Positions 4,063-34,697 of a stretch of DNA of 36,649 nucleotides are shown piece after piece (the stretch's first letter is position 1; each line of letters begins with the position of its first letter). The notes beneath the pieces were generated by a model. It was given only the letters and a program-made list of their open reading frames with translations, searched no databases and was not told where the DNA came from. A program made the translations under genes and the position numbers. The DNA is from a virus. The DNA lies in the IMG/VR virus record IMGVR_UViG_3300037264_001396, positions 1-36,649 of that record; one strand, given 5' to 3'.

Positions 4063-4443
4063 ATGAAACTATTGAATTTACTCAATGAAATTGAACGTTC
4101 CGATATGCCTCAAATCAAAGGAAAAGACATTCCAGATGCATTGAATATTCTTGCTAAAAATGGTATTGCGTATCGTAAAGGTAGTGTAGCAGTCGGTCTC
4201 TTAAAACCAACACAAGATGATGCAAACAAAGAAAAAATGGATTCCATTTCAACAGATATTGAAAATGGGAAACAATTACCACCAATTTTCATTTCAAAAG
4301 ACGGCTCGATTATAGATGGCCATCATCGTTGGTTAGCGTACAAAAATGTATATGGAGATGGTTACAAAATGAGTGTGGTACAAATTATGCTCCCCAAAAT
4401 ACAGTGTCTAAAATTATTCATAGCAGTATCGGAAAAAGTATGA
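4063..4443 (+). CDS. ParB/sulfiredoxin-like domain protein with capsid-targeting-like N-terminus
   Basis: A 126-aa protein. Residues about 66-95 contain the signature of the ParB N-terminal/sulfiredoxin-like fold: GKQLPPIFISKDG followed by IIDGHHRW (84-90). Family members bind nucleotides and act as CTP switches, nucleases or modifying enzymes; which applies here cannot be told, and there is no ParB helix-turn-helix region. The N-terminus MKLLNLLNE fits the tag shared by many genes in this window and would be cut after Glu9 by a gp21-type protease. Translation is probably controlled by the hairpin just upstream. Its stop overlaps the ATG of the next gene (ATGA at 4440-4443), so the two are probably translationally coupled. 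Confidence 0.6.
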   Translation: MKLLNLLNEIERSDMPQIKGKDIPDALNILAKNGIAYRKGSVAVGLLKPTQDDANKEKMDSISTDIENGKQLPPIFISKDGSIIDGHHRWLAYKNVYGDGYKMSVVQIMLPKIQCLKLFIAVSEKV

Positions 4444-5879
4444 CCATTGGATTGCGTTACCTATTAAAAGAAGGCGCCAAAGAACAAGCCGCAATAAGTC
4501 TTTTGACTAAGTTGGTGAAGGAGTCGCCATACAAGGGAAAGGTCTTTCTCGCTGGCGGGTACGTGAGGGATGAATTGATGGGCTTAGAACCAAAAGACAT
4601 AGATTTAGTAATCGAAATGCCAGATGGTGGTATTGCATTTGCAACATGGGTAACGAAGAAATTAAACATTTACAGTTCAACAAACCCTGTAATCTTTCCA
4701 CGTTTCGGAACTGCAAAATTCAATTTGCGTGGCATCAAATGGAAAAGACAGGACTTATCTGATATTGATATTGAATGTGTTATGACTCGAAAAGAGAAAT
4801 ACACAACTGGGTCAAGAAAACCAGATGTAAGTCCAGGCACATTAAAACAAGATGTGGAACGTAGAGATTTTACAGTTAATTCTCTTTTGAAAGATTTGAC
4901 AACAGGAGAAATATTGGATTTAACAGGGATGGGAAAAATTGATTTGGAGAAAGGTGTGGTTCAAACACCGTTGAACCCTGATATTATCTTTGCAGAAGAC
5001 CCATTACGGATGCTTCGAGCAATTCGGTTTACTGTAAAGTATGGATGGAAATTGCCGTTATTTATGATTCGTGCAATTAAGAATAATGCACATATGTTAG
5101 GTTCAATATCATCGGAACGAATACAAGAAGAATTGAATAAAATGTTGGTGACAAAATCGCCCGATACTGCTGTTCGATTGATACAAATAACCGGTTTGAA
5201 TAAGTATGTTGCACCTGAATTAGATGCATTAATAGGACTTCAACAAAATAAATATCATAAATGGGATGCCCAAAAACACACATTACAAGTATTGAAAAGT
5301 ACACCACCAAATTTGGTGACTCGATTGGCTGCATTATTTCATGATATTGGAAAGGCGGAAACCAAAAGTGTGGTTGATAATGAAATTCATTTTTATGAAC
5401 ACGAAGAAATTGGTGCTGATATTGCAGGGGATATTATGAAACGATTAAAATATCCAAACGATATCATAGACAAGGTAACTGCAATCATTCGAGCGCATAT
5501 GCGGTTGAAGGGTGCCGGAAAGGAAGGCGAAATTATCAGTGATAAGGCACTACGGAAATTACAGGCAGATTTAGGAGACCATTTGGAAGATACATTGGAT
5601 TTGATGCATTCAGACAATATAAGTCACGCGGATGATGCATCTATGCCGAATCAAATACCAAGTATTCGACAACGATTGAAAAATGTTGGACTGAGACAAC
5701 CACAACATATAAAACTTCCTATTGATGGAAATGATATTTTGAAAGCATTAAAACTTAAGCCAGGTAGAATTGTTGGTCAATTATTAGACGCAGTAAAAGA
5801 TGCATATTTTACTAATCCAAAACTCACAAAGAAAGATGCATTAACACTCGTTAAAAAAACATATGAGAGACTGAAATAA
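4440..5879 (+). CDS. CCA-adding enzyme-like tRNA nucleotidyltransferase with HD domain
   Basis: A 479-aa class II tRNA nucleotidyltransferase/poly(A) polymerase-like protein. Head-domain motif VFLAGGYVRDELMG (about 35-48) is followed by KDIDLVIE (52-59), where the two Asp would bind catalytic metal; RRDFTVNSL and DPLRMLRAIRF are further family motifs. An HD phosphohydrolase domain follows (LFHDIGKA at about 300, then HEEIGAD and an H at the third site). In bacterial CCA enzymes this HD domain has phosphatase and 2',3'-cyclic phosphodiesterase activity. I chose ATG 4440 because it overlaps the preceding stop as ATGA; the frame extends to a TTG at 4329, but that would overlap the ParB-like gene by 115 bases. 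The N-terminus MTIGLRYLLKE-G loosely resembles the packaging tag. Likely function is 3'-end repair or CCA addition. Confidence 0.8.
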   Translation: MTIGLRYLLKEGAKEQAAISLLTKLVKESPYKGKVFLAGGYVRDELMGLEPKDIDLVIEMPDGGIAFATWVTKKLNIYSSTNPVIFPRFGTAKFNLRGIKWKRQDLSDIDIECVMTRKEKYTTGSRKPDVSPGTLKQDVERRDFTVNSLLKDLTTGEILDLTGMGKIDLEKGVVQTPLNPDIIFAEDPLRMLRAIRFTVKYGWKLPLFMIRAIKNNAHMLGSISSERIQEELNKMLVTKSPDTAVRLIQITGLNKYVAPELDALIGLQQNKYHKWDAQKHTLQVLKSTPPNLVTRLAALFHDIGKAETKSVVDNEIHFYEHEEIGADIAGDIMKRLKYPNDIIDKVTAIIRAHMRLKGAGKEGEIISDKALRKLQADLGDHLEDTLDLMHSDNISHADDASMPNQIPSIRQRLKNVGLRQPQHIKLPIDGNDILKALKLKPGRIVGQLLDAVKDAYFTNPKLTKKDALTLVKKTYERLK

Positions 5880-5880
5880 T

Positions 5881-8800
5881 ATGAACACGGACTTAGGAAA
5901 ATCTATAGTAGAGGAACTTCTAGAAGAACTGCGTCAGGCCGACTTACAAGAAGAAATGATTCGGGAAGGTGTATATGATCCCGGAAAACTGAAGGCAGTT
6001 TTCTTAGCGGGAGGCCCTGGTTCTGGAAAAACTGCGGTCACACAAGAAATATTTGGTGTGCCTAATGAAATTTCCGTTTCTGGCGGTGGATTAAAATATG
6101 TTGGTTCTGATTATGCATTTGAAAAAATGATGAAACGAGCTGGTTATGGTACCAAATTAGACAAACTTGATGATGAAACTTTCAAAAAAATAACATCTGA
6201 TGAACCCGGTTCTATTCGTTCTGATGCAAAACGCTTAGTGACAAATATGATGAATCATTATATTAGTGGGCGGTTGGGTATTATTGTTGATGGTACTGGA
6301 CACAATCCAGAAAAAATCAAACGTCAAGCAGAAATGTTGAAATCTATGGGGTATGATTTACAAATGGTTTTTGTGAATACATCTTTAGAGAAGGCATTAG
6401 ACCGAAATAAAAAAAGAGATAGAACGTTACCAAGTGATATTGTAAAACAAAAGTGGGAAATTGTACAACACAACATTGGAAAATTAAAAGAGATTTTTGG
6501 AAACAATTTTTCGGTTGTTGATAATAACGAAGATATCGTTGGGGGTAAGATAAAGATTCCAGACGGAGTTAACAAAGAAATTAACAAGTTTATTCGAGAG
6601 CCGATTAAAAATCCATTTGGTAAAAAATGGATACAACGAGAATTGGAATTAAAGAGAAAACCATATGCAAAAGAAAAATCTGATTCGGACGTTGATAAAA
6701 AGACACCAGAAACAACATCAAAAACAACGCAATCAAGTTCCCAAGAAAGTGACGCGGCAAAAGACGCGAAGAAACGAGGTCTAATATACAAAGGATTTGG
6801 GCGTTGGGCAGACAAATCAAATACTATAGTCGCAAAATCGGAAAATGGTAAGTTGGTAAAAATAGAGGAATCGTTATCAGAATCGAAGGCGTCAGAGGAA
6901 GCAAAACGTAAAGGATTGGAATATGATGCGTTTGGGCGATGGAAAGATAAGTCTGGGAATGTTGTTGCAAAAACAAAAGACGACAAGTTGATACCTATCA
7001 AATCAAAAGAAGTAGATACCAAATCTTCATCCAAATTGGCATCAACAGATAAAAAATTAGATAAGAAATCAGATAAAGAAACAGACAGTAAAATCAATTC
7101 CAAAATTAAAACACTTGTTGGTGTGTATTCAGGAAGATTTCAACCATTTGGTATGCATCATTTTCAAGCATACAATCAATTAAAGGGTGCGACTGGTGCG
7201 AACACATTTATCGCAACGTCAAATGTAGTTGATAAATACAAGAGCCCATTTACATTCGGTGAGAAACAAAAAATTATATCAAAGTATGGTGTACCTAGTT
7301 CAAAAGTAGTAAAAACAAAAAGTCCATATAAACCTGTTGAGATACTTGAAAAGTTTGACCCAGCAACAACTGCACTTGTAGTTTCATTCGGACAAAAAGA
7401 TGCAGATAGATTAAGTGGTGGTGGTGATTATTACAAACCATTTAAATCAGTAAAGACGTTAGAAGGATATGAAAAACATGGTTATTATATCATTGCGAAA
7501 CACGAATCGGTTGTGGTTGGCGGGAAAGAATTGTCAGGAACTGCAATTCGGGGTATGTTAGGAAGTCACAAGATTAGTAAAGAAAAAAAGATACCAATCT
7601 TCAAGAAAATCTTTGGGTGGTTTGACAAGGATGTTTTTGAAATGATTGTTGATAGGTTAGAAGGAACGGTGTCGGAAGCGATTCGATTGTCTGGCCTATT
7701 GCTAGAGGGTGGTGCGGCAGGACACATGCAACACATATTTGATGATATGCAATTAACTTTTGGAGACCTCAAAAACATTGTTAGATTATCATTACAAGGT
7801 GAATTGAGTAAAGAAGGAGGCGTAACTGAGAAATTGGATGGCCAAGCACTTGCAATTTCATGGAAAGATGGGAAGTTGATAGCTGCAAGGAACAAGGGAC
7901 ATTTGAAAAATCATGGTGCGGCGGCGCCGGACGCAAACGGTATCAAAGACATGTTTGCAGGCCGTGGTGCAGTTGCAGATGCGTTTGGTCTTGCAATGGA
8001 TGATTTGCAAAATGCGGTGAATTCATTATCAGAAAAACAAAAAAAATATGTATTTGATAATGGAAAAAATTTTATGAACTTAGAAATCATCTATCCAAAG
8101 AATGCAAATGTCATACCATATGACACGTCATTACTTGTATTTCATGGTGTAAGTACATATGATGAAAATGGAAATGTAATCAATCAAAATAAAGAATTTG
8201 CACGAATGTTGGCCGGTATGATTAAACAAGTTAACCAAAATGTTCAAAAAACGTATACAATAGAATCACCGACATTTTTGACCATACCAAAATATCAAGA
8301 TTTTTCAGTAAAACAGAACTATTTTATCAAAAAGATAGATGCATTAAAATCAAAATTTCCATTGAAAGATACAGATACGGTATCCGTGTATCATCAAATG
8401 TGGTGGGAAGATTTTATCGGAAAAAAGGCAAAATCAGTTCGATATTCATTACCAAATAATGTGTTAGCAAAATTAGTAATGCGGTGGGCATTCTACGACA
8501 AGTCAAATAAAATTACGGATATTAAAAAAGAAATTGATAATGATAGATTTGCAGAGTGGGTAGATTCGTTTGATAAAAATGATACACAAACGCAAGTGAA
8601 AGAAAATATGTTGCCGTTTGAAAAGATATTTTTAGAATTGGGCGCAACGGTATTGGAAAATGCAAGTGGATTTATTGCGGCCAATCCAAATAAAGTAGTT
8701 CAAAAGATACGAAAAGATTTGGACAAGGCAGTTAGCAAACTAAAAAATTCAACAGACCCAAATGATTTACAAAAACTAAAACTTGAATTGGAACGGATTC

Positions 8801-8934
8801 GTGCAATTGGTGGGTTTGATAAAATTATGCCATCGGAGGGGTTGGTATTTGTTTATAAAGGAAAAACATTCAAACTTACCGGGAGTTTTGCGCCGATAAA
8901 CCAACTCATTGGTATTCTCCGGTATGGGAGATAA
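5881..8934 (+). CDS. Kinase / NMNAT-like nucleotidyltransferase / polynucleotide ligase-like fusion
   Basis: A 1017-aa multidomain protein. (1) Residues about 36-230: P-loop kinase, Walker A GGPGSGKT (44-51), similar to zeta-toxin and polynucleotide-kinase folds. (2) About 288-380: two tandem copies of a Lys/Glu-rich module (DAKKRGLIYKGFGRW; SEEAKRKGLEYDAFGRW), low complexity between. (3) About 411-600: Rossmann nucleotidyltransferase with GRFQPFGMHH in place of the NMNAT GxFxPxHxGH and SGTAIRGML in place of ISSTxxR. (4) About 620-1017: covalent nucleotidyltransferase of the ligase superfamily, motif I EKLDG (Lys651 would be adenylylated), NLEIIYP as motif III, SEGLVF as motif IV and FKLTG as motif V. 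It follows the CCA-like gene by one base. I infer 5'-end phosphorylation and strand sealing of RNA; DNA substrates are not excluded. The site SLSE-S at about 332 resembles the prohead-protease linkers found elsewhere. Confidence 0.72.
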   Translation: MNTDLGKSIVEELLEELRQADLQEEMIREGVYDPGKLKAVFLAGGPGSGKTAVTQEIFGVPNEISVSGGGLKYVGSDYAFEKMMKRAGYGTKLDKLDDETFKKITSDEPGSIRSDAKRLVTNMMNHYISGRLGIIVDGTGHNPEKIKRQAEMLKSMGYDLQMVFVNTSLEKALDRNKKRDRTLPSDIVKQKWEIVQHNIGKLKEIFGNNFSVVDNNEDIVGGKIKIPDGVNKEINKFIREPIKNPFGKKWIQRELELKRKPYAKEKSDSDVDKKTPETTSKTTQSSSQESDAAKDAKKRGLIYKGFGRWADKSNTIVAKSENGKLVKIEESLSESKASEEAKRKGLEYDAFGRWKDKSGNVVAKTKDDKLIPIKSKEVDTKSSSKLASTDKKLDKKSDKETDSKINSKIKTLVGVYSGRFQPFGMHHFQAYNQLKGATGANTFIATSNVVDKYKSPFTFGEKQKIISKYGVPSSKVVKTKSPYKPVEILEKFDPATTALVVSFGQKDADRLSGGGDYYKPFKSVKTLEGYEKHGYYIIAKHESVVVGGKELSGTAIRGMLGSHKISKEKKIPIFKKIFGWFDKDVFEMIVDRLEGTVSEAIRLSGLLLEGGAAGHMQHIFDDMQLTFGDLKNIVRLSLQGELSKEGGVTEKLDGQALAISWKDGKLIAARNKGHLKNHGAAAPDANGIKDMFAGRGAVADAFGLAMDDLQNAVNSLSEKQKKYVFDNGKNFMNLEIIYPKNANVIPYDTSLLVFHGVSTYDENGNVINQNKEFARMLAGMIKQVNQNVQKTYTIESPTFLTIPKYQDFSVKQNYFIKKIDALKSKFPLKDTDTVSVYHQMWWEDFIGKKAKSVRYSLPNNVLAKLVMRWAFYDKSNKITDIKKEIDNDRFAEWVDSFDKNDTQTQVKENMLPFEKIFLELGATVLENASGFIAANPNKVVQKIRKDLDKAVSKLKNSTDPNDLQKLKLELERIRAIGGFDKIMPSEGLVFVYKGKTFKLTGSFAPINQLIGILRYGR

Positions 8935-20003: not shown

Positions 20004-20297
20004 ATGGCAAACCAAGTGTTGGAAATGGGAGAATCAATAAAATTGAAAACCATTGCAAGAGAGATTTTAAAAGAAGATGCCTACAGACCAAATATCAGAA
20101 CATCTACTGCACGTAGTTTGTATATGAAACTCCTTGATTATTTGTTAATGACCGGCGACCCACGATATGAGAAAATAAAACAATTTAGGCGTGCAATAGA
20201 TAAGATTTCAGATTTGCATGACAAAGAGGAATTGAAGAAGTATTTTAATAGTGAATTTCGTAATGTGGGCAAAGATGCGTGGGAGTATTATAAATGA
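20004..20297 (+). CDS. Small unrecognised protein, 97 aa
   Basis: Strong ribosome binding site (AGGAGAAAG). Residues 12-24 (IKLKTIAREILKE) imitate the tag-like L-x-E ending seen in neighbours; a compact helical domain with LMTGDPRYEKIKQFRRAIDKI follows. Its TGA overlaps the next ATG (ATGA). Unknown function. Confidence 0.5.
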   Translation: MANQVLEMGESIKLKTIAREILKEDAYRPNIRTSTARSLYMKLLDYLLMTGDPRYEKIKQFRRAIDKISDLHDKEELKKYFNSEFRNVGKDAWEYYK

Positions 20298-20608
20298 AAT
20301 TAAGAACACTCCTAAAAGAAATAGATTCTAAAGTCGAGTTTTCAAATACACTTGTAACAGATATCAATGTAACTCAACATAAAAAATCAAGTCAAAATGC
20401 TACGGTTGAATATCCAAAACGTGGTGAGAAGTATAGATATAGAGATTGGTTTCTTATTATAAAGAAGATACAATCAAAACCGTATAATACAAACGTATAT
20501 TTTGATGTTGTTGACGAGGCCGGCAATCTATTGCAACAAATGTGGAGAGTATACACATCACAGTGGATTCCGTTAGTAGGAAGTGGTTTAATAAAAAAGG
20601 TGGGATAA
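20294..20608 (+). CDS. Small protein with MKLRTLLKE tag, 104 aa
   Basis: Starts MKLRTLLKE-I, matching the capsid-targeting-like consensus with predicted cleavage after Glu9. The remainder is beta-rich (YRDWFLIIKKI, NVYFDVVDEAGNLLQQMW, WIPL) like a small SH3-type fold; not recognised. Overlaps the previous gene by four bases and ends one base before the next start. Confidence 0.5.
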   Translation: MKLRTLLKEIDSKVEFSNTLVTDINVTQHKKSSQNATVEYPKRGEKYRYRDWFLIIKKIQSKPYNTNVYFDVVDEAGNLLQQMWRVYTSQWIPLVGSGLIKKVG

Positions 20609-20918: not shown

Positions 20919-21257
20919 ATGAAATTGATGCAATTACTAATGGAAGGATTGTGGACTAAAAATGATGCGGAGTTTATTAAATCGCATATAAAAGCCCCTG
21001 TTGTAGGCGCCCAATATTCTACGTTGGGTGGGGAACAACGTGCATCTATTTTGATTGTGGTGTCATTAGACCCCAAGAGTAAGTGGCAAAATGGAATATT
21101 AGAAAATTCTAGATATGCACGTTTTCATGTAGAGAGTGACGGTGCATTGACCTTGTTTTCTGGCGGCGGGGGATTTCCAAAATTCAGAAAGACTAGAGTG
21201 AAAAACGCACAAGATGTTGTGAATAAAATCAACACACTTATATCTCAGGTGAAATGA
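20919..21257 (+). CDS. Small protein with MKLMQLLME tag, 112 aa
   Basis: Starts MKLMQLLME-G. The rest is alpha/beta: APVVGAQY, ASILIVVSLDPK, ARFHVESDGALTLFSGGGGF, DVVNKINTLISQ. Similar in order to the broken gene that follows (APVTGATY ... ending in a helix), so the pair may be diverged paralogues. Function unknown. Confidence 0.5.
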   Translation: MKLMQLLMEGLWTKNDAEFIKSHIKAPVVGAQYSTLGGEQRASILIVVSLDPKSKWQNGILENSRYARFHVESDGALTLFSGGGGFPKFRKTRVKNAQDVVNKINTLISQVK

Positions 21258-22119: not shown

Positions 22120-22208
22120 TAGATGGAACAAGACGCCCTGGTGATTTAGGAATCGCTATTGTAACTGATAAACCAATTGGTGACGCACCAGTAGTTACGT
22201 CAAATTAA
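22074..22208 (+). CDS. Small acidic protein, 44 aa
   Basis: ATG 22074 with the duplicated AAGGAGATAAG site. Begins MSEEKQEVEQPKDKD and ends in a short Gly/Pro/Thr-rich tail (GDLGIAIVTDKPIGDAPVVT). It ends 12 bases before the prohead protease. Presumably the intact parent copy of the chimeric gene. Not recognised. Confidence 0.5.
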   Translation: MSEEKQEVEQPKDKDVDGTRRPGDLGIAIVTDKPIGDAPVVTSN

Positions 22209-22220
22209 TCGGAGATTTAC

Positions 22221-22829
22221 ATGGAGTCAAGACAATTATTAATCAGTGTCATTCCATTTACTGTATCACCACAACAAATCAACGAATCGTTGGAAAAGAA
22301 TGGTGGTAGATTGATTGTGAGTGGTGTGTTGCAACGTGCAAATGCAGTAAATCAAAATGGACGGGTATATCCAAAACCAGTTTTGTTAAGGGAATCTGAT
22401 AAATATGCAAAGACATTTGTTATCGAAAGACGCGCTCTCGGGGAATTAGATCATCCGGACAGTACGGTTGTAAACTTGTCAAATGCAAGTCATAACGTAC
22501 AAAAGATGTGGTGGGAAGGCGATGATTTGTGTGGAACAGTTGAAATTCTTGGAACACCAGCCGGAAACATTCTAAAAGAATTGTTCAAGTCGGGTATTCG
22601 TCTTGGTATTTCTTCTCGTGGATTGGGGTCGGTAAAAGAAGCTGCGCAAAAACAAGTTATTGTGCAAGATGATTTTGAGCTTATAGCATTTGATTTTGTT
22701 TCGAATCCCTCAACCCAGGGTGCCTTCCTGTCACCAATTAACGAAGGTGCTATTAAGGAAAGGATTAACAGTAGATATCATAAAGTCAATGATGTCATTA
22801 CGAACATTCTTCTTGATATAGGAAAATAA
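22221..22829 (+). CDS. Prohead core protease (gp21-like)
   Basis: A 202-aa serine protease of the phage prohead protease family (T4 gp21, herpes assemblin-like fold). It digests the scaffold and trims head proteins after Glu in (L/I)-x-E. Seen motifs: ALGELDHPDS with His78 as likely catalytic base, and LGISSRGLG with Ser131/132 as nucleophile; a second conserved His is at 91. Potential self-cleavage sites are INE-S (20-23) and INE-G (173-176), giving a core of about 150 residues. Length and position between portal and scaffold match T4. Start ATG 22221 with CGGAG. Confidence 0.9.
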   Translation: MESRQLLISVIPFTVSPQQINESLEKNGGRLIVSGVLQRANAVNQNGRVYPKPVLLRESDKYAKTFVIERRALGELDHPDSTVVNLSNASHNVQKMWWEGDDLCGTVEILGTPAGNILKELFKSGIRLGISSRGLGSVKEAAQKQVIVQDDFELIAFDFVSNPSTQGAFLSPINEGAIKERINSRYHKVNDVITNILLDIGK

Positions 22830-22830
22830 A

Positions 22831-25800
22831 ATGCCCGCAAAATCTAAAAAACAACAAAAAATGTTTGGTATTGCACGTGCATTACAAAAGGGAGATATCT
22901 CACCATCGAAAGTCTCTGCGCCTGCCCGCAAGATTGCAAAGACTGTTTCCAAAAAAGACGTTGAAGATTTTGCATCTACACCAACAAAGAATCTCCCAGA
23001 CCGTGTAAAGAAGGAAGAAATGAAAAAACGACTCAAGGAAATGATGTTACCGATTATTAGAAAAGAATTGTCTTCTGTAATTGGTGAAGTTGGTATTAAA
23101 TTACCAGATATCAAGTCGTATGAAGATGCAAAAACATTTTTGTTGCAAAGGGGAGTTAATTCTGATGCAAAAATAGGCGATAAAGTTACAGCAAAACACA
23201 CAGTTGTCCAACAACACAGAGGGAGTTGGCAAAACTATTTGAAATCATTGGTACCATCGTTGAATGAACATCATGGTGGTGAGTATCCACCCGAAGTGTT
23301 AGATATGACCGTTTCGACATTGTTGGACAAGATAAAAACTACAAATCCAGAGTTGTATAACAAGTTAGAAGATGAAATCGAGAAATCCACTATGAAAACA
23401 GAATCTATTATCGAATCGAAAGAACGAGTTTTGTATGCCGTTGCGGAGAATGACCCGGAGTGGAAAGAACAAATTCGTGTTGCTACAATTGACTTGAGTA
23501 AAGTTCCAGACTTTAAAAAGACTGTTAATAAAGATGCAGCTGACAAGTTACTGAAACATTTTCAAGAATCTCAATTATCGAAATTACAAGAAAAACTTGG
23601 TAGACAATTAACTGTACCTGAAAAACATCAACTTGCAATTGCGTATAAAACTATGAAAATGCCAGATGCGGGGGTTGGTGTTATGGGCGGGATGGATAAG
23701 GCAGAAGCGAAAAATGTGATAAAACGACTTACTGGAAAAGATTATAAATCACAAAAAGAACAAATTGTTGAATCTAAAAAACGATATAATACTCAATACA
23801 ATATTGGTAAATCAAAGTATGTTGTTAATTTTCATGATGGGGTCAAAAAACATAAAGATGGTAGTGATTTTTTTGACATTCATATATTTCATAACAAGAA
23901 AGATTTGGGAAATTTTACTTCTGAGTTGAAACGTAAAGGATATGTTAGTGAGTCAAACGAACAAACAAACGAAAGTTCCGATTTAAAAAGTGCCGAAGTT
24001 AAGGTACAAGGAATGACCATCAAAATAGTGAACATAGGACGTGATATGTACAAAGTTTTCGTAGCGGGTGAACCGATTGCCAGTGTTCCGAAAAGTAAAC
24101 TTATACGTGTGTTGAATAGATTTGGTGTTAAAACATTACCACCTGAATTGAGAGAATCGTCTGCGGTTGACAAAGAACTTGCTAAGGAGTACGGTGCTGA
24201 AGAATTTGTTCGTAAAGCGCTAGACAAGAAATTATCAGGAGTAAGTATCATTACTCAATTACAGAAAATGGGATTCGACAGAGACCATGCACACCAAATT
24301 TATTATAGAATATTTGATGCACGACCAAAAATTGGGGATAAGAAAGAATCCATTAACGAAGAAGCCCCGATTGGTAAGATTTTTAAAGAGGGGGATTCTT
24401 TCATTGACCATTATGGAGAAAAACTTTATATTATTGAAATTGACCCAAAAGATGGAAGTATGGACTTAGAAGATTCACATGGCAATTCATATGAGAGTTA
24501 TTTTGAAACGTTTGGATTTAAATATATTGGTAATGGAAAGATAAAGAAAATAAAAATGTTGCGTAAAGAATCTATCAACGAAGCCACAATTACAGACCCA
24601 CGATTTATAAAACCGGCCGAATATTGGTTTAAAGGTGGACGAGATTTAAGTAAGTTCAATGATGCAACAATTAAATTTGCATACAATATAATGAAAAAAT
24701 CTGCATTGACCAGAATTGAGGAATATAAACAGTTCCTAACAGCGTTGCAGAAAGAAATGTACGAACGAAAACTACTTGAATCTATTAACGAATCTACAGT
24801 TCGCTCATTGAGTGATATCGCACAAGAAATTTCTAAGGATTGGAAAAATGTTAATTTTGCGGCCAGACCATATTTGGATGCAATGTATTCATTGGATAAA
24901 ATGGGTGATTCATATGGTGCGGATAGTGCAAAATCTATTGTTGCATATTTTCTTTCTAATGCAAGTTCGTGGCGTGGAGAAACCGCAAAACGAGTAAAGA
25001 AAGAATTACTACAAAGATTGAAAATGCGTGAGTCCATTAATGAAACCATTGAAGTATATGATGAACGGCATGTTGGAAAAATGAATATCATTATGATGCG
25101 AAGGGGCAATGAGAATCGGGCCGCAATCTTTAAGAATGGAAAAGAGAATAAATATAATCGAAACAATCCAAAAGATGTTGCAACGTTGTGGAAGCTTGCT
25201 GGAAAATATCCACAAAAGCCAATAGAAGAAGATTATAATCCTGTAACAGACCCTGACAATTATATGAAAACGAAAAAGTATGGATTTAGTCCTGAAGATG
25301 CTCCGAATATAAACGAGTCTATTAATGAGTCATATTCGTCAAAGGATATAGTTTCTATTATATGGGGAGACATTGGTAGACCCGGAATTGGATTTATAAA
25401 ACGAACTGGTCAACGAGTTGGTGATTGGATGCTTGGAACTGCACAATTGAAAATGAATGGCCCATGGAATTATGAAAAAGAAGTCAATAAAACATTATCA
25501 AAAGATGGATTTTCTATCGAACAAATTAGAAAATTACAAAAAATTACCACAGATGCAATAGAAAAGGCCGTATCATATGTTGGTAAAAGGAACAATCTAA
25601 AATTTGGAAGTGGTGGTATACAAACGTATGCTACGCCAGACCGGTTTTCTAAAAAATCAATCATCATACCATATTCGGAAAGTGAAGATACTGATTTGGA
25701 AAAATATAGACAACAAGCATATGTTATTGCTAGGGGATTGACGGAAAAACGAATTAGTCAATATCTAGATGCAATTAAAAAAGAATCGATTAATGAAGCC

Positions 25801-26187
25801 CGCACAATTGGTAAAATCAACATTAAAAAATTGAAACAAGTTGTGATGGATAAGTGGAAGAAAAATCACAATGTATCAGAAGAAGAAGTGATAGATGCAT
25901 TACCGCCATCATGGTGGAGTATTTGGGAAATGGCAGACCAAGAAATACGTGGATTTGTTGATGATGCATTGTTTGATTTAGCGCATCATGGAAAAATTAT
26001 GGAACGAGAGTTTAAGGGCAAGATAACAGAAACTTTTTCTCCACATGATGAAGTCGAATTATCAATTGGTAGTAAGAAATTACTCGCAAAAATTCAAAAG
26101 GTTAGTGGAAACAGTGTGTGGGTAGATTTACCAAACGGAAAGACCATACGCACAACGTTGAATAATATAAAGAAACTAGAAAAATAA
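22831..26187 (+). CDS. Modular polyprotein-like internal protein with repeated ESINE linkers
   Basis: A 1118-aa protein directly after the protease. Residues 1-62 (MPAKSKKQQKMFGIARAL ... DVEDFAS) match the DUF3008 type of small basic phage proteins. Linkers fit (L/I)-x-E cleavage: SIIE-S (195), QIVE-S (314), then SINE followed by E, A, S, T, S, A at Glu 510, 584, 654, 738, 833 and 989, and ITE-T (1067). Fragments would be about 51 to 196 residues, each looking like an independent small domain; one is a basic beta module (VNFHDGVKKHKDGSDFFDI), the last an SH3/KOW-like module (VELSIGSKKLLAKIQKV). No enzyme motif recognised. I infer internal head proteins released by the protease; a continuous tandem-domain protein remains possible. 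Confidence 0.65.
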   Translation: MPAKSKKQQKMFGIARALQKGDISPSKVSAPARKIAKTVSKKDVEDFASTPTKNLPDRVKKEEMKKRLKEMMLPIIRKELSSVIGEVGIKLPDIKSYEDAKTFLLQRGVNSDAKIGDKVTAKHTVVQQHRGSWQNYLKSLVPSLNEHHGGEYPPEVLDMTVSTLLDKIKTTNPELYNKLEDEIEKSTMKTESIIESKERVLYAVAENDPEWKEQIRVATIDLSKVPDFKKTVNKDAADKLLKHFQESQLSKLQEKLGRQLTVPEKHQLAIAYKTMKMPDAGVGVMGGMDKAEAKNVIKRLTGKDYKSQKEQIVESKKRYNTQYNIGKSKYVVNFHDGVKKHKDGSDFFDIHIFHNKKDLGNFTSELKRKGYVSESNEQTNESSDLKSAEVKVQGMTIKIVNIGRDMYKVFVAGEPIASVPKSKLIRVLNRFGVKTLPPELRESSAVDKELAKEYGAEEFVRKALDKKLSGVSIITQLQKMGFDRDHAHQIYYRIFDARPKIGDKKESINEEAPIGKIFKEGDSFIDHYGEKLYIIEIDPKDGSMDLEDSHGNSYESYFETFGFKYIGNGKIKKIKMLRKESINEATITDPRFIKPAEYWFKGGRDLSKFNDATIKFAYNIMKKSALTRIEEYKQFLTALQKEMYERKLLESINESTVRSLSDIAQEISKDWKNVNFAARPYLDAMYSLDKMGDSYGADSAKSIVAYFLSNASSWRGETAKRVKKELLQRLKMRESINETIEVYDERHVGKMNIIMMRRGNENRAAIFKNGKENKYNRNNPKDVATLWKLAGKYPQKPIEEDYNPVTDPDNYMKTKKYGFSPEDAPNINESINESYSSKDIVSIIWGDIGRPGIGFIKRTGQRVGDWMLGTAQLKMNGPWNYEKEVNKTLSKDGFSIEQIRKLQKITTDAIEKAVSYVGKRNNLKFGSGGIQTYATPDRFSKKSIIIPYSESEDTDLEKYRQQAYVIARGLTEKRISQYLDAIKKESINEARTIGKINIKKLKQVVMDKWKKNHNVSEEEVIDALPPSWWSIWEMADQEIRGFVDDALFDLAHHGKIMEREFKGKITETFSPHDEVELSIGSKKLLAKIQKVSGNSVWVDLPNGKTIRTTLNNIKKLEK

Positions 26188-26188
26188 T

Positions 26189-27145
26189 ATGAAACAACTA
26201 ATACCATTGTTAGAATCTCACAGAAATGTATATTTGCAACGTGCATTTCCAATTGGTAGGTTTGTTAAAACATCAGATGGGAAATCCGGTGAAGTAGTAG
26301 GATATGAACCACCAGATAAAGTGATGGTGCGGTTTAAGGGTGAACACGATGCACATCCAATACGAATGGGTGATTTGAAGAAAGAATCTATTTTAGAAAG
26401 TTCGTTTCAAATAAAAAAGGTGGAATCATATGTCGAACCGATAGAAGATGAGGACGCTATGGAAGGTTCGGTGAAACATACCAATTATGACATTTTATTA
26501 CGCAACAAACGAATTGGCGAGTTGCAGCACGAAGATTATTTTAATTCACTGTATGCACACGTTGATGGAAAAATGTTCCAAATTCCAGGCCGTTCAGAAG
26601 ATGTTAAATTAAGATTTGATGCCTATATAAAAACTCCACGTGCAAAAGGATTTTTAAAGAAGGTGAAGAAAGAATCTATCAACGAATCAAAAGCATCAGA
26701 AGAAGCAAAACGTAAGGGGTTGGAATATATGGGGTTTGGTAGATATGGAAAAAATGGAAAACAAACCCATACTGTAAAAAATGATAAGTTGATGCCCATA
26801 AAATCAAAGAATGATGCTGGTACGTCTGACTCAGGAGATTCGGCGAGTCGCGCACTTGCACAAGGTGACCCACAGTTTGAAAAACCTCAAAAACAAAAGC
26901 CGATTGATGTGGATGTGCCGGACAAAGCATACAACTATTGGAGAGATTTGTTTTACAAAAACAAAGGTATCGTAAAAAATACAATTGTAAAACAACTAGT
27001 TCAAACACATAAAGAACTGAACGCCGCATTTGCGGAACTTGCAGATAAAAATCAAATGGGCGGTGCATACATTAAGAAAATGACTAATGGTGATTGGATT
27101 TGGAGAGAAATGAGAACGACTGCGTTTCAGGCGCACGGCGGATAA
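26189..27145 (+). CDS. Tagged two- or three-module protein with ESINE linkers
   Basis: A 318-aa protein starting MKQLIPLLE-S, one base after the polyprotein. Internal linkers ESILE-S (about 66-71) and ESINE-S (about 162-167) split it into a small beta domain (GRFVKTSDGKSGEVVGY), a middle domain (YDILLRNKRIGELQHED) and a C-terminal part. The last begins SKASEEAKRKGLEYMGFGRY, nearly identical to a module in the kinase/ligase fusion at about 6880-7010, also at DNA level. A helical C-terminal domain follows. Same family logic as the polyprotein; function unknown. Confidence 0.55.
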   Translation: MKQLIPLLESHRNVYLQRAFPIGRFVKTSDGKSGEVVGYEPPDKVMVRFKGEHDAHPIRMGDLKKESILESSFQIKKVESYVEPIEDEDAMEGSVKHTNYDILLRNKRIGELQHEDYFNSLYAHVDGKMFQIPGRSEDVKLRFDAYIKTPRAKGFLKKVKKESINESKASEEAKRKGLEYMGFGRYGKNGKQTHTVKNDKLMPIKSKNDAGTSDSGDSASRALAQGDPQFEKPQKQKPIDVDVPDKAYNYWRDLFYKNKGIVKNTIVKQLVQTHKELNAAFAELADKNQMGGAYIKKMTNGDWIWREMRTTAFQAHGG

Positions 27146-28156: not shown

Positions 28157-29290
28157 ATGGACAAAACAACTGAAATAAAAGAAATAATACGAGAAATTCT
28201 GCAAGAAGAATCGAAACCAATACTTGAAGCCAAAGGCAAGTTTTCATTATCAAACTCTCAATATAATCAATTGGATTCTTTGATTTCTAAGTTTGGTGGT
28301 GATATCGAGTCCATAACAGAATCTACACTTGAAGAAGTAGAAGCAAAAACTGTTGAGATTGACCCCAGTGTTCTTGATAATTTGGAAACTTTTATACAGA
28401 GTGGGTTGGAAGCAAAGTCTTGGTATGAGGATATGAATAATAAAATAATGGGTGCGTTAGGAGAATCGGATGGGTGTTTGTTTCTGATACTGATGGCAAT
28501 TTTTTCACCGCAAAACGCTCTAGCACAAAATTTTAGGTTGGCCGCACAAGTGTATGTTGGATTAAAAAAAGATTTGGGTAATCCAAAAAGTAAGAAATTG
28601 TTGGAAGATTTGATTGATGAAAAAAGTATCTATAGAACACTAAAAGACAAACAAAAAATATCGTTTAGAAACATATTCGACTGGCTCACGGGTCAAAGAC
28701 AATATGCAGAATTAAAAACGGTTCAAGGACTTGTAACGGGTGCAAAATCTGTTAATGCATATGCTGGAAATTTGGGTAGGGTATTAAACTTGTATAAACA
28801 ACATGGATATACATTTACAAAATCGGATGTTGTGGATGAAATGTCTAAATACATAACGAAAAAAGGAACACTTGGAAAAAATGCTCTTATTTCTGCGGAC
28901 AAAGTGTTCAGTTTTACACTGAATTTGTTAGACCCAAATTTCGAATTTGAAACTGGATGGATGCCCGTGACAATTGATACTTGGATGGCATCGTTCTTTT
29001 TACCAGAGTTGTCGAGTAAAGAGAAGGCAAAAGTTCTTGCAAAGTCTCAAAATTATGCGAAGATGGCCGATATGGTTCAAAAAGAAGCATCGAAGTATGG
29101 AATGAGACCATTAGAATTACAAGCGGTAATTTGGGTTGCAATGATTAAGTCAAAGAAAGGAGAGAAATATTCTGTGAATTTTGATTCTGCAATCAATAAA
29201 AACTTGAAAAAATTGAATCTTGCTAAGGATGAAATAGAAAAAATGAGTGGTGTATATAGCAAAATAATTCAGGTGATAGGAGCAATTTAA
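28157..29290 (+). CDS. Helical protein with tandem L-x-E sites at N-terminus, 377 aa
   Basis: I start it at ATG 28157 (20 bases after the previous stop); the frame runs back to TTG 28085 but that overlaps the upstream gene. N-terminus MDKTTEIKEIIREILQE-ES then KPILE-A gives two possible protease cuts. The body is helical; its end (TIDTWMASFFLPEL ... SKYGMRPLELQAVIWVAM) recalls a conserved phage domain with a helix-hairpin-helix flavour that I cannot name with confidence. Stop overlaps the next start (TAATG). Confidence 0.5.
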   Translation: MDKTTEIKEIIREILQEESKPILEAKGKFSLSNSQYNQLDSLISKFGGDIESITESTLEEVEAKTVEIDPSVLDNLETFIQSGLEAKSWYEDMNNKIMGALGESDGCLFLILMAIFSPQNALAQNFRLAAQVYVGLKKDLGNPKSKKLLEDLIDEKSIYRTLKDKQKISFRNIFDWLTGQRQYAELKTVQGLVTGAKSVNAYAGNLGRVLNLYKQHGYTFTKSDVVDEMSKYITKKGTLGKNALISADKVFSFTLNLLDPNFEFETGWMPVTIDTWMASFFLPELSSKEKAKVLAKSQNYAKMADMVQKEASKYGMRPLELQAVIWVAMIKSKKGEKYSVNFDSAINKNLKKLNLAKDEIEKMSGVYSKIIQVIGAI

Positions 29291-29748
29291 TGAAACTTAT
29301 ACAACTTTTGGTAGAGGACGAAGAAACCGATAGAATGAAATCCGATAAGGAAAAGTTGATGCAGAAAGCAGACACGTTGGTAAAACAACGAAAGACACAA
29401 CAAGACCCACTTCGAAAATCAACAATGTCAAAACAGATATCTGATTTGGGAAGTAAGAAAGCCGATATCAATCTAAAAATGCAAAAGAAAAAACAAGAGT
29501 TGGAGAAACAAAAAGTGACTGAAGCCCATGATTCAACGTTATTAGATGATGCAGAAGATAACATTCTTGTTATTGCGAAAAATGAACGAAAATATTACTA
29601 TGCAAAAGACGCCGCCGGCGCAATTGATTATGCAATAAAGATATATGTTTCTGAAACTCTGGAAAATTTAAAGGCGGATTTACACAGTAACAGATACAAA
29701 TTAATTAAAGAACTTCTTGCATATTGGAAACGTGAAGGACACGTCTAA
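29290..29748 (+). CDS. Tagged coiled-coil protein, 152 aa
   Basis: Starts MKLIQLLVE-D. Residues about 15-77 form a charged coiled coil (MQKKKQELEKQ), then VTE-A (about 78-80), a second possible cut, and a small alpha/beta domain (NILVIAKNERKYYYAKD ... AIDYAIKIYV). Overlaps both neighbours by one base (TAATG). Confidence 0.5.
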   Translation: MKLIQLLVEDEETDRMKSDKEKLMQKADTLVKQRKTQQDPLRKSTMSKQISDLGSKKADINLKMQKKKQELEKQKVTEAHDSTLLDDAEDNILVIAKNERKYYYAKDAAGAIDYAIKIYVSETLENLKADLHSNRYKLIKELLAYWKREGHV

Positions 29749-30257
29749 TGAAACTAATGGCATTGTTACGAGAGAATTTATCATATGAACTTTGGGTAGA
29801 CATGGATGGTGTTCTTACAGACTTTGACGCACAACTAAAACAAATGTGCGGAATCAAGAATGGTCGTGCATTTGAAGCAAAATATGGGAAACAAGAATTT
29901 TGGCATAGAATAGATGTTGCAGGGTTAGAGTTTTGGTCGGATATGCCGTGGATGCCCGATGGGAAACAATTGTGGTCGTTTCTTAAAAAGATGAATTTAC
30001 CAATATTCATTATTACTGCGCCCGCGAGTTTGATTCCGGAAAGTATGACTGGAAAAAGGATGTGGGTGTCAAAAAACTTAGGGTCGTATCCTATATATTT
30101 CAGTCAAACTGGTAAAAAGGGTAAATTTGCAAGAAAAAATAGAATTTTAATTGATGATATGATGAAAAATATAGATAGTTGGAAAACACACGGATTGGTA
30201 ATTCACCATACGTCAACATCAGATACGATATCAAAACTAAACCAAATAGTGAAATAA
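29748..30257 (+). CDS. HAD-family phosphatase, 5'(3')-nucleotidase-like, with packaging-type tag
   Basis: A 169-aa protein. After the tag MKLMALLRE-N comes ELWVDMDGVLTDFD (14-27), HAD motif I with nucleophile Asp18 and acid Asp20. IFIITAPAS (about 84-92) supplies motif II, KKGKFARKNRILIDD (about 123-137) motif III Lys and motif IV Asp pair. The short cap and length resemble bacterial and phage 5'(3')-deoxyribonucleotidases; a 3'-end phosphatase as in T4 Pnkp is an alternative that would fit the RNA-repair genes. Packaging into the head is inferred from the tag. Confidence 0.7.
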   Translation: MKLMALLRENLSYELWVDMDGVLTDFDAQLKQMCGIKNGRAFEAKYGKQEFWHRIDVAGLEFWSDMPWMPDGKQLWSFLKKMNLPIFIITAPASLIPESMTGKRMWVSKNLGSYPIYFSQTGKKGKFARKNRILIDDMMKNIDSWKTHGLVIHHTSTSDTISKLNQIVK

Positions 30258-31789: not shown

Positions 31790-33019
31790 ATGGCAGACAC
31801 TCTATTGAAAGATGCTATTGCAGATGCCAAGGCCGTTCGTGAGACCGCTCTTGCAAATGCAAAGTTAGCGCTTCAGGAAGCTTTCACTCCAAAATTACAA
31901 TCCATGCTTTCTGCACGATTGAAGAATGAGATGGAAGGTGATTTTGACAAGGAAGGCGAAGAGGAAGTACCAACTGGTTTGGAAGATACCGAAAATGAAA
32001 TTGACCCAACCGTTGCGAAAGAAGAAACCGATGTTACTGCATCTTCTGGCAAAGACCCAGAGAAAGAAAAGGCTGGTGATGTTGGAACTGAAAGTGGTTC
32101 TAATACCGCAAAGTCTACGAAAGATACACTTGGAAAGACAACTATTGAAGAAGAAGGTGAAGAAGAATTCCCTGTTGGTGATGAAGAAGAAGATGGACTG
32201 AATGGTGATTCAATCACATCTGAAGCCGAAGAAATTCCTATAGCGGGTGAGGAAGACGAAGTTCCTGAAGATGAGGACAACGTTGAACTCGAAGCGATTA
32301 TAAAGGAACTCGAAGCAGAAGACGAAGTGCCTGTTGAAGAACCTGCACTTGGTGATGAAGAAGTTCCAACAGAAGAAGCAACCGATGTAACAGCAGATGC
32401 TGGTCAAGACACTGAAACGGAATTAGCTGGTGATGTAGGTCCTGAGAGTGGTTCTGATGCCGCAACTGTGGTTGCACCAACGACTGGAACAGATAGCGTT
32501 GAAGGTGAGGAAGAACTCGACCTTGAATCTCTTGTAAAAGAAATTGAAGACGAGATGGGTGATGAGGAATCCGAAGAAGAAAAAGAAAAGGCTGGACAAG
32601 TCGAATTCGAAAATCTTCGAAAGGAAAACACTTCACTCAAGAAATCCATAAAAGAACACCGAGATGTTATTGTGTTTATGCGTGGTAAGTTGAACGAAAC
32701 AAATCTTCTTAATGCAAAGTTGCTCTATACCAATAAACTATTCCGTTCTAACACTCTTTCTGAGTCGCAGAAGGTACGTGTACTAGAAGCTCTCGACAGA
32801 GCAAACAGTATTCGTGAAGCAAAGTTGGTTTACTCGACACTTGCTGAAGCATTGAAAATTAAGAAACCATTGACAGAAATCAAGAAGAAGGACAAAGGTA
32901 GTGCATCAAAATCTACCGGTACAACAAAACCTTCAACTGAAATTCTAAGTGAGGGTGCGGACATTCGTAAGAGATTCCAAAGACTCGCTGGCGTCAAGGG
33001 CATAAAGAAGTTTTTGTAA
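31790..33019 (+). CDS. Prohead scaffolding core protein (gp22-like)
   Basis: A 409-aa, extremely Glu/Asp-rich protein right before the major capsid gene, as T4 gp22 is. N-terminal helix (DAIADAKAVRETALANAKLA) with an LQE-A cleavage site at Glu30, a long acidic disordered middle (about 50-270), a coiled coil (about 272-345), and a basic C-terminal tail (RKRFQRLAGVKGIKKFL) likely to contact the capsid protein. The middle holds a diverged duplication: residues 80-107 and 198-225, both TDVTA...AGDVG.ESGS. Expected to be destroyed by the prohead protease during maturation. Assignment rests on position, acidity and architecture. Confidence 0.78.
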   Translation: MADTLLKDAIADAKAVRETALANAKLALQEAFTPKLQSMLSARLKNEMEGDFDKEGEEEVPTGLEDTENEIDPTVAKEETDVTASSGKDPEKEKAGDVGTESGSNTAKSTKDTLGKTTIEEEGEEEFPVGDEEEDGLNGDSITSEAEEIPIAGEEDEVPEDEDNVELEAIIKELEAEDEVPVEEPALGDEEVPTEEATDVTADAGQDTETELAGDVGPESGSDAATVVAPTTGTDSVEGEEELDLESLVKEIEDEMGDEESEEEKEKAGQVEFENLRKENTSLKKSIKEHRDVIVFMRGKLNETNLLNAKLLYTNKLFRSNTLSESQKVRVLEALDRANSIREAKLVYSTLAEALKIKKPLTEIKKKDKGSASKSTGTTKPSTEILSEGADIRKRFQRLAGVKGIKKFL

Positions 33020-33074: not shown

Positions 33075-34697
33075 ATGGGTACATTAAATGAAGCTGTAAA
33101 GAAACTTTTGACTTCTGAAAATCCCAAGTTTTCTTTGATGCAGGCAACCAAGGCACTTGTTTCTAAGTGGGAGCCATCCGGTTTGCTTGAGGGAATTGAC
33201 CGTGAGTATGACCAACATGCAATGGCAGTTCTTCTTGAGAATCAAGCGCGTCAGTTGATTGACGAAGCTTCACGAACTGGTACGGCTGCTAACTCTGAGG
33301 AATGGAGTGGTGTAGCTCTTCCATTGGTTCGAAAGATTTTCGGTGAAATTGCATCGAAGGACTTCGTATCAGTCCAACCTATGAATCTTCCATCCGGACT
33401 TATTTTCTATCTAGATTTTAGATATGGAACAACGAAAGGTGGTTTCACATCGGCAACTTCCATCTACGGTGTTACAAACACCGCTGGAAATCCGAGTGGT
33501 GGTTTGTATGGTAGTGGACGATTTGGATACACCATTAACACACAATCAGTTTCCGCTTTTGGTGGAACATTTAGCACAGCGGCTTGGTCTTCGGTGAATT
33601 TCAATCCAGACCTAAGTGCAAGCATCTCTGCAGGACGTATTATTGAATTGGCAATCGCATCGTCTTCGTTTACACGACCAGACGTTGAGGGCGTCAAGGC
33701 ATTCCGTCTTGTAAGTGTTTCATCCGCTTCCGGTGCTTTAACCGTCGTTGAGCAATATCCAGCATACTTTAAGGTCGCTGGTGCTAACCTTGTATTCTAT
33801 TTCTCAGCATCCGCTGGGCCAAATGGTACAAACTCAACCGCATCAGTCTCCTATATTCAACAGCCAACCGAAACAATTCGTGGTGATTTCGAACAGTCAA
33901 GCTTTAATGTTCCTGCACCATCAACGGCTGACGATATTGGTATTCCAGAAATTAACGTTGCAATGAACAGTGTTCCAATTGTTGCTAAGACCCGTAAGTT
34001 GAAGGCAATTTGGACACCAGAATTTGCTCAAGATTTGAACGCATATCACTCGATTGACGCAGAAGCAGAATTAACTGCAATGTTGTCCGAGTACATTTCA
34101 ATGGAAATTGACCTTGAAATCCTAGATATGTTGATTGTCAATGCGTTAACGACTGAATACTGGTCAGCAGAAGTAGGTGCCGAGTATAGTGCGGCGTCAG
34201 GCATTTTTGTTCCATCAGCTGCTACAAACAGCAATGCATACACAAAAATGACATGGTTCCAGACACTCGGTACGAAGTTGCAGAAGGTTTCCAACAAGAT
34301 TCACCAGAAGACAATGCGTGGTGGTGCAAACTTTATGGTTTGCTCGCCAGAAGTCGCAACGATTGCTGAGTCAATCCCTGGATTCGCTGCTGATACAGAT
34401 GGAGACAAGATGAAGTTCGCAATGGGCGTGCAGAAGATTGGCGCGATTAATAACCGCTACAATGTCTACAAGAACCCATACATGTTGGACAATATCATCT
34501 TGATGGGATTCAGAGGTACACAGTTCTTAGAGACGGGGGCTGTTTATGCTCCGTACGTGCCTTTGATTACAACTCCATTGGTTTACGACCCGGTGTCATT
34601 TACGCCTCGAAAGGGTGTTATGACTCGGTACGCAAAAAAGATAGTAAGACCGGAATTTTTTGGTAAGGTTGTTGTTGGTGGTACAGACACAATCTAA
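33075..34697 (+). CDS. Major capsid protein (gp23-like)
   Basis: A 540-aa HK97-fold capsid protein close in length to T4 gp23 (521). The N-terminal 64 residues are the helical delta-domain; LIDE-A at Glu64/Ala65 matches the T4 cleavage after Glu65. Following conserved parts: EEWSGVALPLVRKIFGEI, MNLPSGLIFYLDF, VAKTRKLKAIWTPEFAQDL, MEIDLEILDML and the C-terminal FYG-like ending VRPEFFGKVVVGG. Codons are more GC-rich than neighbours, with Lys mostly AAG, as expected for a very highly expressed gene. Start ATG follows TTTGGAG. A terminator follows. Confidence 0.95.
   Translation: MGTLNEAVKKLLTSENPKFSLMQATKALVSKWEPSGLLEGIDREYDQHAMAVLLENQARQLIDEASRTGTAANSEEWSGVALPLVRKIFGEIASKDFVSVQPMNLPSGLIFYLDFRYGTTKGGFTSATSIYGVTNTAGNPSGGLYGSGRFGYTINTQSVSAFGGTFSTAAWSSVNFNPDLSASISAGRIIELAIASSSFTRPDVEGVKAFRLVSVSSASGALTVVEQYPAYFKVAGANLVFYFSASAGPNGTNSTASVSYIQQPTETIRGDFEQSSFNVPAPSTADDIGIPEINVAMNSVPIVAKTRKLKAIWTPEFAQDLNAYHSIDAEAELTAMLSEYISMEIDLEILDMLIVNALTTEYWSAEVGAEYSAASGIFVPSAATNSNAYTKMTWFQTLGTKLQKVSNKIHQKTMRGGANFMVCSPEVATIAESIPGFAADTDGDKMKFAMGVQKIGAINNRYNVYKNPYMLDNIILMGFRGTQFLETGAVYAPYVPLITTPLVYDPVSFTPRKGVMTRYAKKIVRPEFFGKVVVGGTDTI

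Follow-up and report, generated by a model that had tools for sequence, protein, structure and literature searches.

The window analysed here, a stretch of 36.6 kb of viral DNA (positions 1 to 36,649 of IMG/VR virus record IMGVR_UViG_3300037264_001396), carries an ATG-start open reading frame (ORF) of 1118 aa that we interpret as a putative polyprotein of head-internal proteins. It starts 1 nt past the gene for an S77 prohead protease of the T4 gp21 type, and the genes of a scaffold candidate and of the major capsid protein gp23 lie downstream. A preliminary description of this DNA had named nine prohead-protease sites in the protein, and all of them were located at the residues given (SIIE/S at 195, QIVE/S at 314, ESINE/ at 510, 584, 654, 738, 833 and 989, and ITE/T at 1067; a slash marks the presumed cut). 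The gp21-like character that it had ascribed to the neighbouring gene was borne out by the PF03420 match. The protease, the polyprotein gene and its modules and sites are the following (L numbers denote related loci).

22221..22829, + strand: prohead protease, T4 gp21-type S77 peptidase, the presumed cutter (PF03420, E=1.6e-30, score 106.5 against a cut-off of 27 bits; phrog_207, E=7.1e-54)
22831..26187, + strand: putative head-cargo polyprotein, 1118 aa, 127.8 kDa, pI 9.4 (ATG-start ORF, motif statistics, relatives beside S77 proteases)
22831..23001, + strand: module 1, DUF3008, residues 1-57, the recurrent N-terminal module of this protein class (PF11450, E=1.8e-9; same N-terminus at many loci)
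23086..23088, + strand: candidate extra site E86 (SSVIGE/VG), past a helical stretch after DUF3008 (consensus motif)
23413..23415, + strand: candidate site E195 (ESIIE/SKE; motif only)
23770..23772, + strand: site E314 (EQIVE/SKKRY; Glu at -1 in 32/32 homologues, hydrophobic at -3 in 31/32, upstream unrelated)
23773..23952, + strand: KKRY/HDG module, residues 315-374 (107 related places in viral contigs; compact AlphaFold2 (AF2) fold)
23950..23952, + strand: candidate site E374 (GYVSE/SNE; motif; the module of relatives ends ...ESVNE/ at the equivalent place)
24358..24360, + strand: site E510 (KKESINE/EA; ESINE repeat)
24580..24582, + strand: site E584 (RKESINE/AT; ESINE repeat)
24790..24792, + strand: site E654 (LLESINE/ST; ESINE repeat; homology of the next module to standalone genes begins at 652-657)
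24793..25023, + strand: phrog_13953 module, residues 655-731 (PHROG E=1.8e-24; standalone versions elsewhere)
25042..25044, + strand: site E738 (MRESINE/TI; ESINE repeat; the next module directly follows a site in other phages)
25045..25245, + strand: DERHxGK module, residues 739-805 (in other polyproteins with other neighbours and linkers)
25327..25329, + strand: site E833 (INESINE/SY; ESINE repeat)
25795..25797, + strand: site E989 (KKESINE/AR; ESINE repeat)
26029..26031, + strand: candidate site E1067 (KGKITE/TF; motif; resembles the EGKLTE linkers of L035/L121)

A recurrent linker in the 1118-aa protein

The recurrent core ESINE, already pointed out in the preliminary description, is present in six exact copies, as against a mean of 0.002 and a maximum of 1 in 5000 composition-preserving shuffles. 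The looser motif [IL][NST]E occurs ten times (2.2 in the shuffles, none of the 5000 reaching that number), and bare [IL]xE 22 times versus 13.2 (p ~0.007). Since this last enrichment is only mild, the signal is carried by the recurrent linker and not by motif count, the motif itself being the L/I-x-E of gp21 substrates (PMC9026906). Beyond the nine sites, the protein has further consensus sites (86, VIGE/V; 374, YVSE/S; 442; 829; and others), so that the figure of about nine given earlier for the sites does not fix how many fragments there are.

One explanation of such linkers is that they are by-products of recombination, that is, a homology acting in the DNA, where it would promote the fusion of modules, and serving no purpose in the protein. 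The linker DNA is indeed nearly uniform in some relatives (four copies of GAAGGAAAACTTACAGAA in L121; also L225 and L057), and there it may well help shuffling. However, the six ESINE copies of the window differ in codons (TCC/TCT/TCG, ATT/ATC, AAC/AAT, GAA/GAG); they are therefore kept at the protein level and represent no simple or fresh DNA repeat, and a DNA-repeat origin of the window linkers was rejected on this ground.

Module boundaries coincide with the sites

The KKRY module was aligned with its flanks from 32 phages and proved well conserved within and unrelated outside, conservation dropping upstream of P5. At its upstream site, P1 is Glu in all 32 sequences and P3 is I, V, L, M or F in 31, with ten residue types at P2; as read from the alignment, this pattern matches the L/I-x-E specificity of T4 gp21 (PMC9026906). 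Over 191 strict sites, P1' is Ala in 30% and Gly in 29%, against a background of 6-7%.

The coincidence of boundaries and sites was then measured in an all-against-all comparison of 109 polyprotein-type proteins, with random positions drawn from the same proteins. Both partners carried [ILVMF]xE at 45.6% of the left ends of homology blocks (3.8% at random positions) and at 28.3% of the right ends (3.7%), that is, 8 to 12 times as often as random positions, and for [IVL][NST]E the values were 23.5% versus 1.0% on the left and 15.7% versus 0.7% on the right. The control motifs [ILVMF]xD and [ILVMF]xK showed no enrichment at block ends, and Glu without a hydrophobic P3 was up 1.5- to 2-fold. The order of modules also changes between phages: the DERHxGK module comes after KKRY in L185, L201 and L204, before it in L225 and L186 (where it is N-terminal), and after an EGKLTE linker in L021. 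Junctions of the same kind bear linkers unrelated in their DNA (ESINE, ESVNE, EGKLTE, IDE, VTE), and conservation follows the positions of protease recognition (P1 and P3 constant, P2 variable) rather than identity of the DNA, both of which make a functionless recombination by-product very improbable. On sequence comparison, we regard it as strongly supported that the motifs of the 1118-aa protein are prohead-protease-type sites dividing independent modules. This agrees with the earlier proposal that each fragment is a small domain as far as the separation of modules goes, although the piece 315-510 probably holds more than one module.

Sites placed inside folded cores had been named beforehand as an outcome that would speak against the proposal. 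The KKRY module, modelled by AF2 with its flanks and the 32-row alignment, gave a compact alpha/beta fold with a predicted local distance difference test (pLDDT) of 82-91 over most of 319-368, low confidence being limited to the extreme N-terminus and to 378-397, and site 314 lies in a lower-confidence coil just ahead of the first strand. For this module, then, the predicted structure has the sites in the low-confidence flanks and not within the core, so the adverse outcome was not seen there, whereas elsewhere the single-sequence model of the whole protein is too poor to tell (mean pLDDT 41, unusable). No function is proposed for the KKRY module, as fold searches with its model gave no relative with confidence (best Foldseek hit T7 Gp1.2, E 0.28; best VIA-align hit the dynamin PH domain, Z 6.0).

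Relatives and their genomic context

A scan with the protease as query gave 80 viral contigs, and scans with single modules (DUF3008; KKRY, 315-374) gave more than 150 further loci. Module-wise queries were productive, whereas the whole 1118-aa query found one locus only, because the modules are shuffled. Among all loci, 64 non-redundant ORFs have at least two strict sites (a few of them being the proteases themselves), and of the 78 such ORFs on protease-bearing loci, 77 are at most 3 kb away from the protease gene, the loci extending only 5-10 kb. Examples downstream of the protease are an ORF of 675 aa with four ESVNE (L057), one of 632 aa with three ESVNE (L083) and one of 698 aa with EGKLTE or EGKLNE linkers (L035/L121). 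The region of L121 that corresponds to DUF3008 matches phrog_25121, "virion structural protein", and in 49 of 57 distinct DUF3008 proteins a consensus site falls within 43 residues after this domain, a count made without a random control.

Of the 27 whole records searched, 24 have the S77 protease. On both strands of records of 216, 253 and 276 kb, the ES[IVM]NE DNA pattern was found 4, 7 and 9 times (0, 1 and 0 times for the reversed pattern); all four hits of the 216-kb record are inside the polyprotein gene, and those of the other two are mostly in two clusters, one of which is the protease region. A second ES[IV]NE cluster lies ~115 kb from the protease in L180 (G001, ~230.8-234.8 kb) and in L188 (G002, ~216.6-217.5 kb), perhaps as a second cargo locus.

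Modules encoded singly behind leader-like peptides

In the vicinity of these proteases, small genes frequently open with MIKLKELLNE or MKLxxLLxE, N-termini that resemble the T4 capsid targeting sequence, and single-gene homologues of related modules carry such a T4-like leader ending in a presumed cut site. In the window, leader-like N-termini were counted in 8 of 32 genes (1.0 expected, maximum 6 in 5000 shuffles). Of 243 alignments of single genes with polyproteins, 197 brought the leader site into register with an internal one; the alignments are redundant and weighted to few families, but by reading, about ten module families show the register. As an example, a single gene in L064/L103 begins MIKLKELLNE/RMSKRE, the same module is internal in the near-identical phage L063 as ESVNE/RMDKRQ, and a relative is internal in L125 as EGKLNE/RMDAKK. 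The window module 655-731 is found in L157 as a 98-aa single gene with an N-terminal ...ILSE/G, and in Mycobacterium phage Herbertwm as a plain standalone gene of 82 aa. The latter adjoins genes annotated as ParB-like nuclease and DNA methyltransferase, so that the homologue is no T4-type head protein there.

A link to virions comes from the T4-like cyanophage S-SCSM1, through two further window genes with internal sites.

5881..8934, + strand: Zeta-toxin-like kinase and further domains, internal site ESLSE/SK (334) (PF06414, E=2.9e-13)
26189..27145, + strand: second, smaller candidate polyprotein (N-terminus MKQLIPLLE/S; ESILE/S at 70, ESINE/S at 166)

The virion proteome of S-SCSM1 comprises 45 proteins, including the NMNAT ORF91, for which its authors caution that it could be carry-over (PMC9602691). 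Its record labels ORF93, a distant DUF3008 protein, and its neighbours as virion proteins. The NMNAT begins MKSFLQFLKE/A, and the segment directly after this leader matches 5881-8934 directly after ESLSE/S (BLASTP E=3e-5). The shared module is also found after ESINE/S in 26189-27145, where the part following E166 matches that following ESLSE/ in 5881-8934 (66% over 47 aa). At least one site-preceded module of the window is therefore also leader-preceded in a virion-detected protein. Given the capsid-targeting-like N-termini on single-gene versions and the virion reports for the DUF3008 and NMNAT proteins of S-SCSM1, it is plausible by analogy that fragments of the 1118-aa protein end up in the head as internal proteins.

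The same observations bear on the possibility that the chain is never cut and acts whole in a polyvalent-like way, ESxNE then serving to join domains or to dock onto the scaffold or core. Phage polyvalent proteins with 2-15 domains are known (PMC5512222), in the T4 targeting peptide the part that contacts the core precedes the cut site, and cleavage of the 1118-aa protein is something that we only infer. Nevertheless, an uncut chain would not account for the gp21-type pattern (invariant P1 Glu, hydrophobic P3, free P2, small P1'), for the register with single-gene leader peptides, or for the S77 protease in 24 of the 27 whole records, usually close by, and we consider it quite unlikely.

Weighing a cargo polyprotein against a core protein

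We favour, as probable, a modular polyprotein of head-internal proteins that is cut apart by the prohead protease. The gene would encode a chain of small modules, independent of one another and for the most part basic, which would enter the prohead core perhaps via the N-terminal DUF3008 and helix segment; our guess is that the DUF3008 stretch and helix, followed by site 86, are the best candidate for targeting. The neighbouring gp21-type protease would cleave the joints between modules behind the Glu of [I/V/L]-x-E (ESINE or one of its variants), and every module would be set free as an internal head protein of its own, to be delivered alongside the DNA. Since modules also exist as single genes with a putatively cleavable targeting peptide, the polyprotein may be seen as a concatenated form of T4-style internal proteins, with modules shuffled between phages.

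The main alternative is a core or scaffold protein that helps to build the prohead core, as T4 gp22 and gp67 do, and is then chopped, its pieces leaving the head before DNA packaging. Two further genes of the window matter in this respect.

31790..33019, + strand: acidic scaffold candidate in the gp22 position, separate from the polyprotein (composition, place before gp23)
33075..34697, + strand: major capsid protein gp23, likely propeptide site QLIDE/AS at residue 64 (PF07068, E=8.2e-73; site by inspection)

The polyprotein gene does lie between gp21 and the scaffold gene, the neighbourhood of the T4 core proteins gp22, gp67 and gp68, and T4 gp21 makes several cuts in gp22 and gp67, the fragments of which are mostly removed (PMC9026906). 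Yet the window has its own acidic scaffold candidate before gp23 (without a family match in the Pfam and PHROG searches), and the 1118-aa protein, basic at pI 9.4 and encoded ~6.9 kb upstream of gp23, lacks the acidic composition and the place directly before gp23 of a gp22-like scaffold. T4 core proteins are not modular, whereas here the modules are varied and shuffled, one folds independently in the AF2 model and another stands alone in a Mycobacterium phage far from T4-like phages; boundaries at the sites would be unneeded by a disposable scaffold. A discarded core protein thus appears unlikely.

Several points weigh against the cargo polyprotein all the same. Both cleavage and virion content are what we infer, for this phage and for any phage with such a polyprotein, and given that T4 gp21 also cuts core proteins to fragments that mostly leave the head (PMC9026906), multiple sites alone are no proof of retention. 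The 1118-aa protein starts with DUF3008 and no T4-like targeting peptide, the first later consensus site being at residue 70 or 86. Only four modules (DUF3008, 315-374, 655-731 and 739-805) have relatives elsewhere; the segments bounded by 510, 584, 833, 989 and 1067 are orphans among the loci compared, the last third of the protein (739-1118) gave no match in isolate phages, and the KKRY module had none in sequenced isolate phages or in one genome-contig scan. The proteins of the boundary test were selected in part by motif, and alignment ends can be attracted by the motif as such. Finally, the AF2 model of the whole protein tests no site.

Comparison with known systems

The closest parallel is the T4 internal proteins IPI-III and Alt (PMC9026906), with which the present case shares an S77 protease, L/I-x-E sites, a place near the head genes, small basic proteins, rapid turnover of cargo between phages and, on the single-gene versions, leader-type N-termini. 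T4, however, has one gene per internal protein and one leader removed (Alt is also trimmed C-terminally), whereas here many modules lie in one chain with a site at every joint and a DUF3008 start in place of a 10-residue leader. None of the IPI, IPII, IPIII and Alt families was among the Pfam and PHROG matches, no profile-profile comparison with the internal proteins having been made. In giant phages too, the prohead protease cuts ejected head proteins of the inner body after Glu, sometimes at several places (substrates such as phiKZ gp175 and SPN3US gp245; PMC10052503), but there the multiple sites are in removed propeptides and one mature fragment is left, whereas here they lie between successive folded modules.

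The polyvalent proteins of phages likewise consist of several domains in a modular, shuffled arrangement; they are predicted to be packaged along with the DNA and delivered with it, and their domains also occur alone (PMC5512222), and the class of the 1118-aa protein shows the same multidomain chain of shuffled domains that also stand alone. Unlike it, those described are found mainly in portal-terminase phages and conjugative elements, and their domains are recognised as enzymatic or LPD ones, in some cases along with a peptidase of their own (PMC5512222); here the presumed protease is a separate gene. No polyvalent domain (LPD, MPTase, PBECR, ART and others) was above the Pfam cut-off in the proteins searched. 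An LPD5 match in L225 (E=0.0096) was set aside, since it fell short of the cut-off and ran across a site.

RNA viruses and retroviruses are characterised by the processing of polyproteins; as a cargo strategy of tailed phages, no report of it was found in the literature searched. Full-text literature searches likewise gave no case of cargo modules strung together with a prohead-protease site at every joint, but their partial coverage makes this weak evidence of absence. The novelty claimed in the preliminary description stands to this extent, but the component parts were already known, namely the T4 internal proteins, the capsid targeting sequence, gp21 and its motif, giant-phage ejection proteins (PMC10052503) and polyvalent proteins (PMC5512222). 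We rate the polyprotein system as a variation on the T4 internal-protein system that is widespread in uncultured T4-like phages. On balance, we lean towards an undescribed packaging system of these phages, in which shuffled cargo modules would be concatenated, loaded as one chain and released in the prohead by the gp21-type protease, so that many internal proteins would come from one gene and new ones would be gained by adding a module and a site.

If this is true, the linkers would provide a ready-made parser for hundreds of unannotated modules, each one that lies between two sites being a candidate injected protein. Among the proteins that T4 injects are Alt, which modifies RNA polymerase, and the anti-restriction protein IPI. 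It would become testable what large marine phages inject and how cargo gets swapped, and a natural route is suggested by which a T4-type head could be loaded with several proteins in a set stoichiometry.

Other genes of the window

The nearest isolate proteases found for 22221-22829 are those of Microcystis phage Mel-JY01 (52%) and Flavobacterium phage immuto (50%), with which GELDHP His78 and GISSRG Ser131/132, of putative catalytic role, are invariant. A Mel-JY01 protein at the same locus looked ADP-ribosyltransferase-like, but Pfam did not confirm this and it was not used. Among cultured relatives, immuto is the closest that came up, and its 841-aa protein (locus tag immuto35A_191) contains MNESVNE/G and LKESLNE/D. 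The immuto protein in scaffold position (L003, 15955-17196) has a near-exact internal duplication (GFEQWLDSVSAQMDKFGKNNPTIQAIEKAV...) with Glu before each copy. Just upstream of the window protease, the 3' end of gene 21458 is doubled by a direct repeat of 89 nt (21907-21995 and 22035-22123, 99% identical), and close by there is a partial copy of 56 nt (21734-21789, 21979-22034).

Further genes with capsid-targeting-like N-termini are the following.

4063..4443, + strand: gene with N-terminus MKLLNLLNE/ (N-terminus)
4440..5879, + strand: tRNA nucleotidyltransferase, N-terminus MTIGLRYLLKE/ (PF01743, E=2.2e-20; N-terminus)
20294..20608, + strand: gene with N-terminus MKLRTLLKE/ (N-terminus)
20919..21257, + strand: gene with N-terminus MKLMQLLME/ (N-terminus)
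29290..29748, + strand: gene with N-terminus MKLIQLLVE/ (N-terminus)
29748..30257, + strand: NT5C-like nucleotidase, N-terminus MKLMALLRE/ (PF06941, E=3.3e-5, just under the cut-off; N-terminus)

The start of the 4440-5879 gene was re-chosen downstream of the listed TTG. Behind MKLLNLLNE, the product of 4063-4443 has by eye a ParB/sulfiredoxin-like segment (PPIFISKDGSIIDGHHRWLAY), without a Pfam match, and the 1017 aa of 5881-8934 comprise a Zeta-toxin/AAA kinase domain followed by NMNAT-like and (by eye) ligase-like segments. The genes for the terminase large subunit (12259-15039) and the gp20 portal (15103-18375) both appear to bear inteins, with weak Hint and LAGLIDADG matches in the former and Intein_splicing (E=6.9e-17) and an HNH domain in the latter. 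Likely homing or free-standing nucleases are encoded at 8938-9759 (NUMOD3 repeats, E=3e-20) and at 34856-35692 (zinc-finger and DUF559-like), the latter adjoining gp23.

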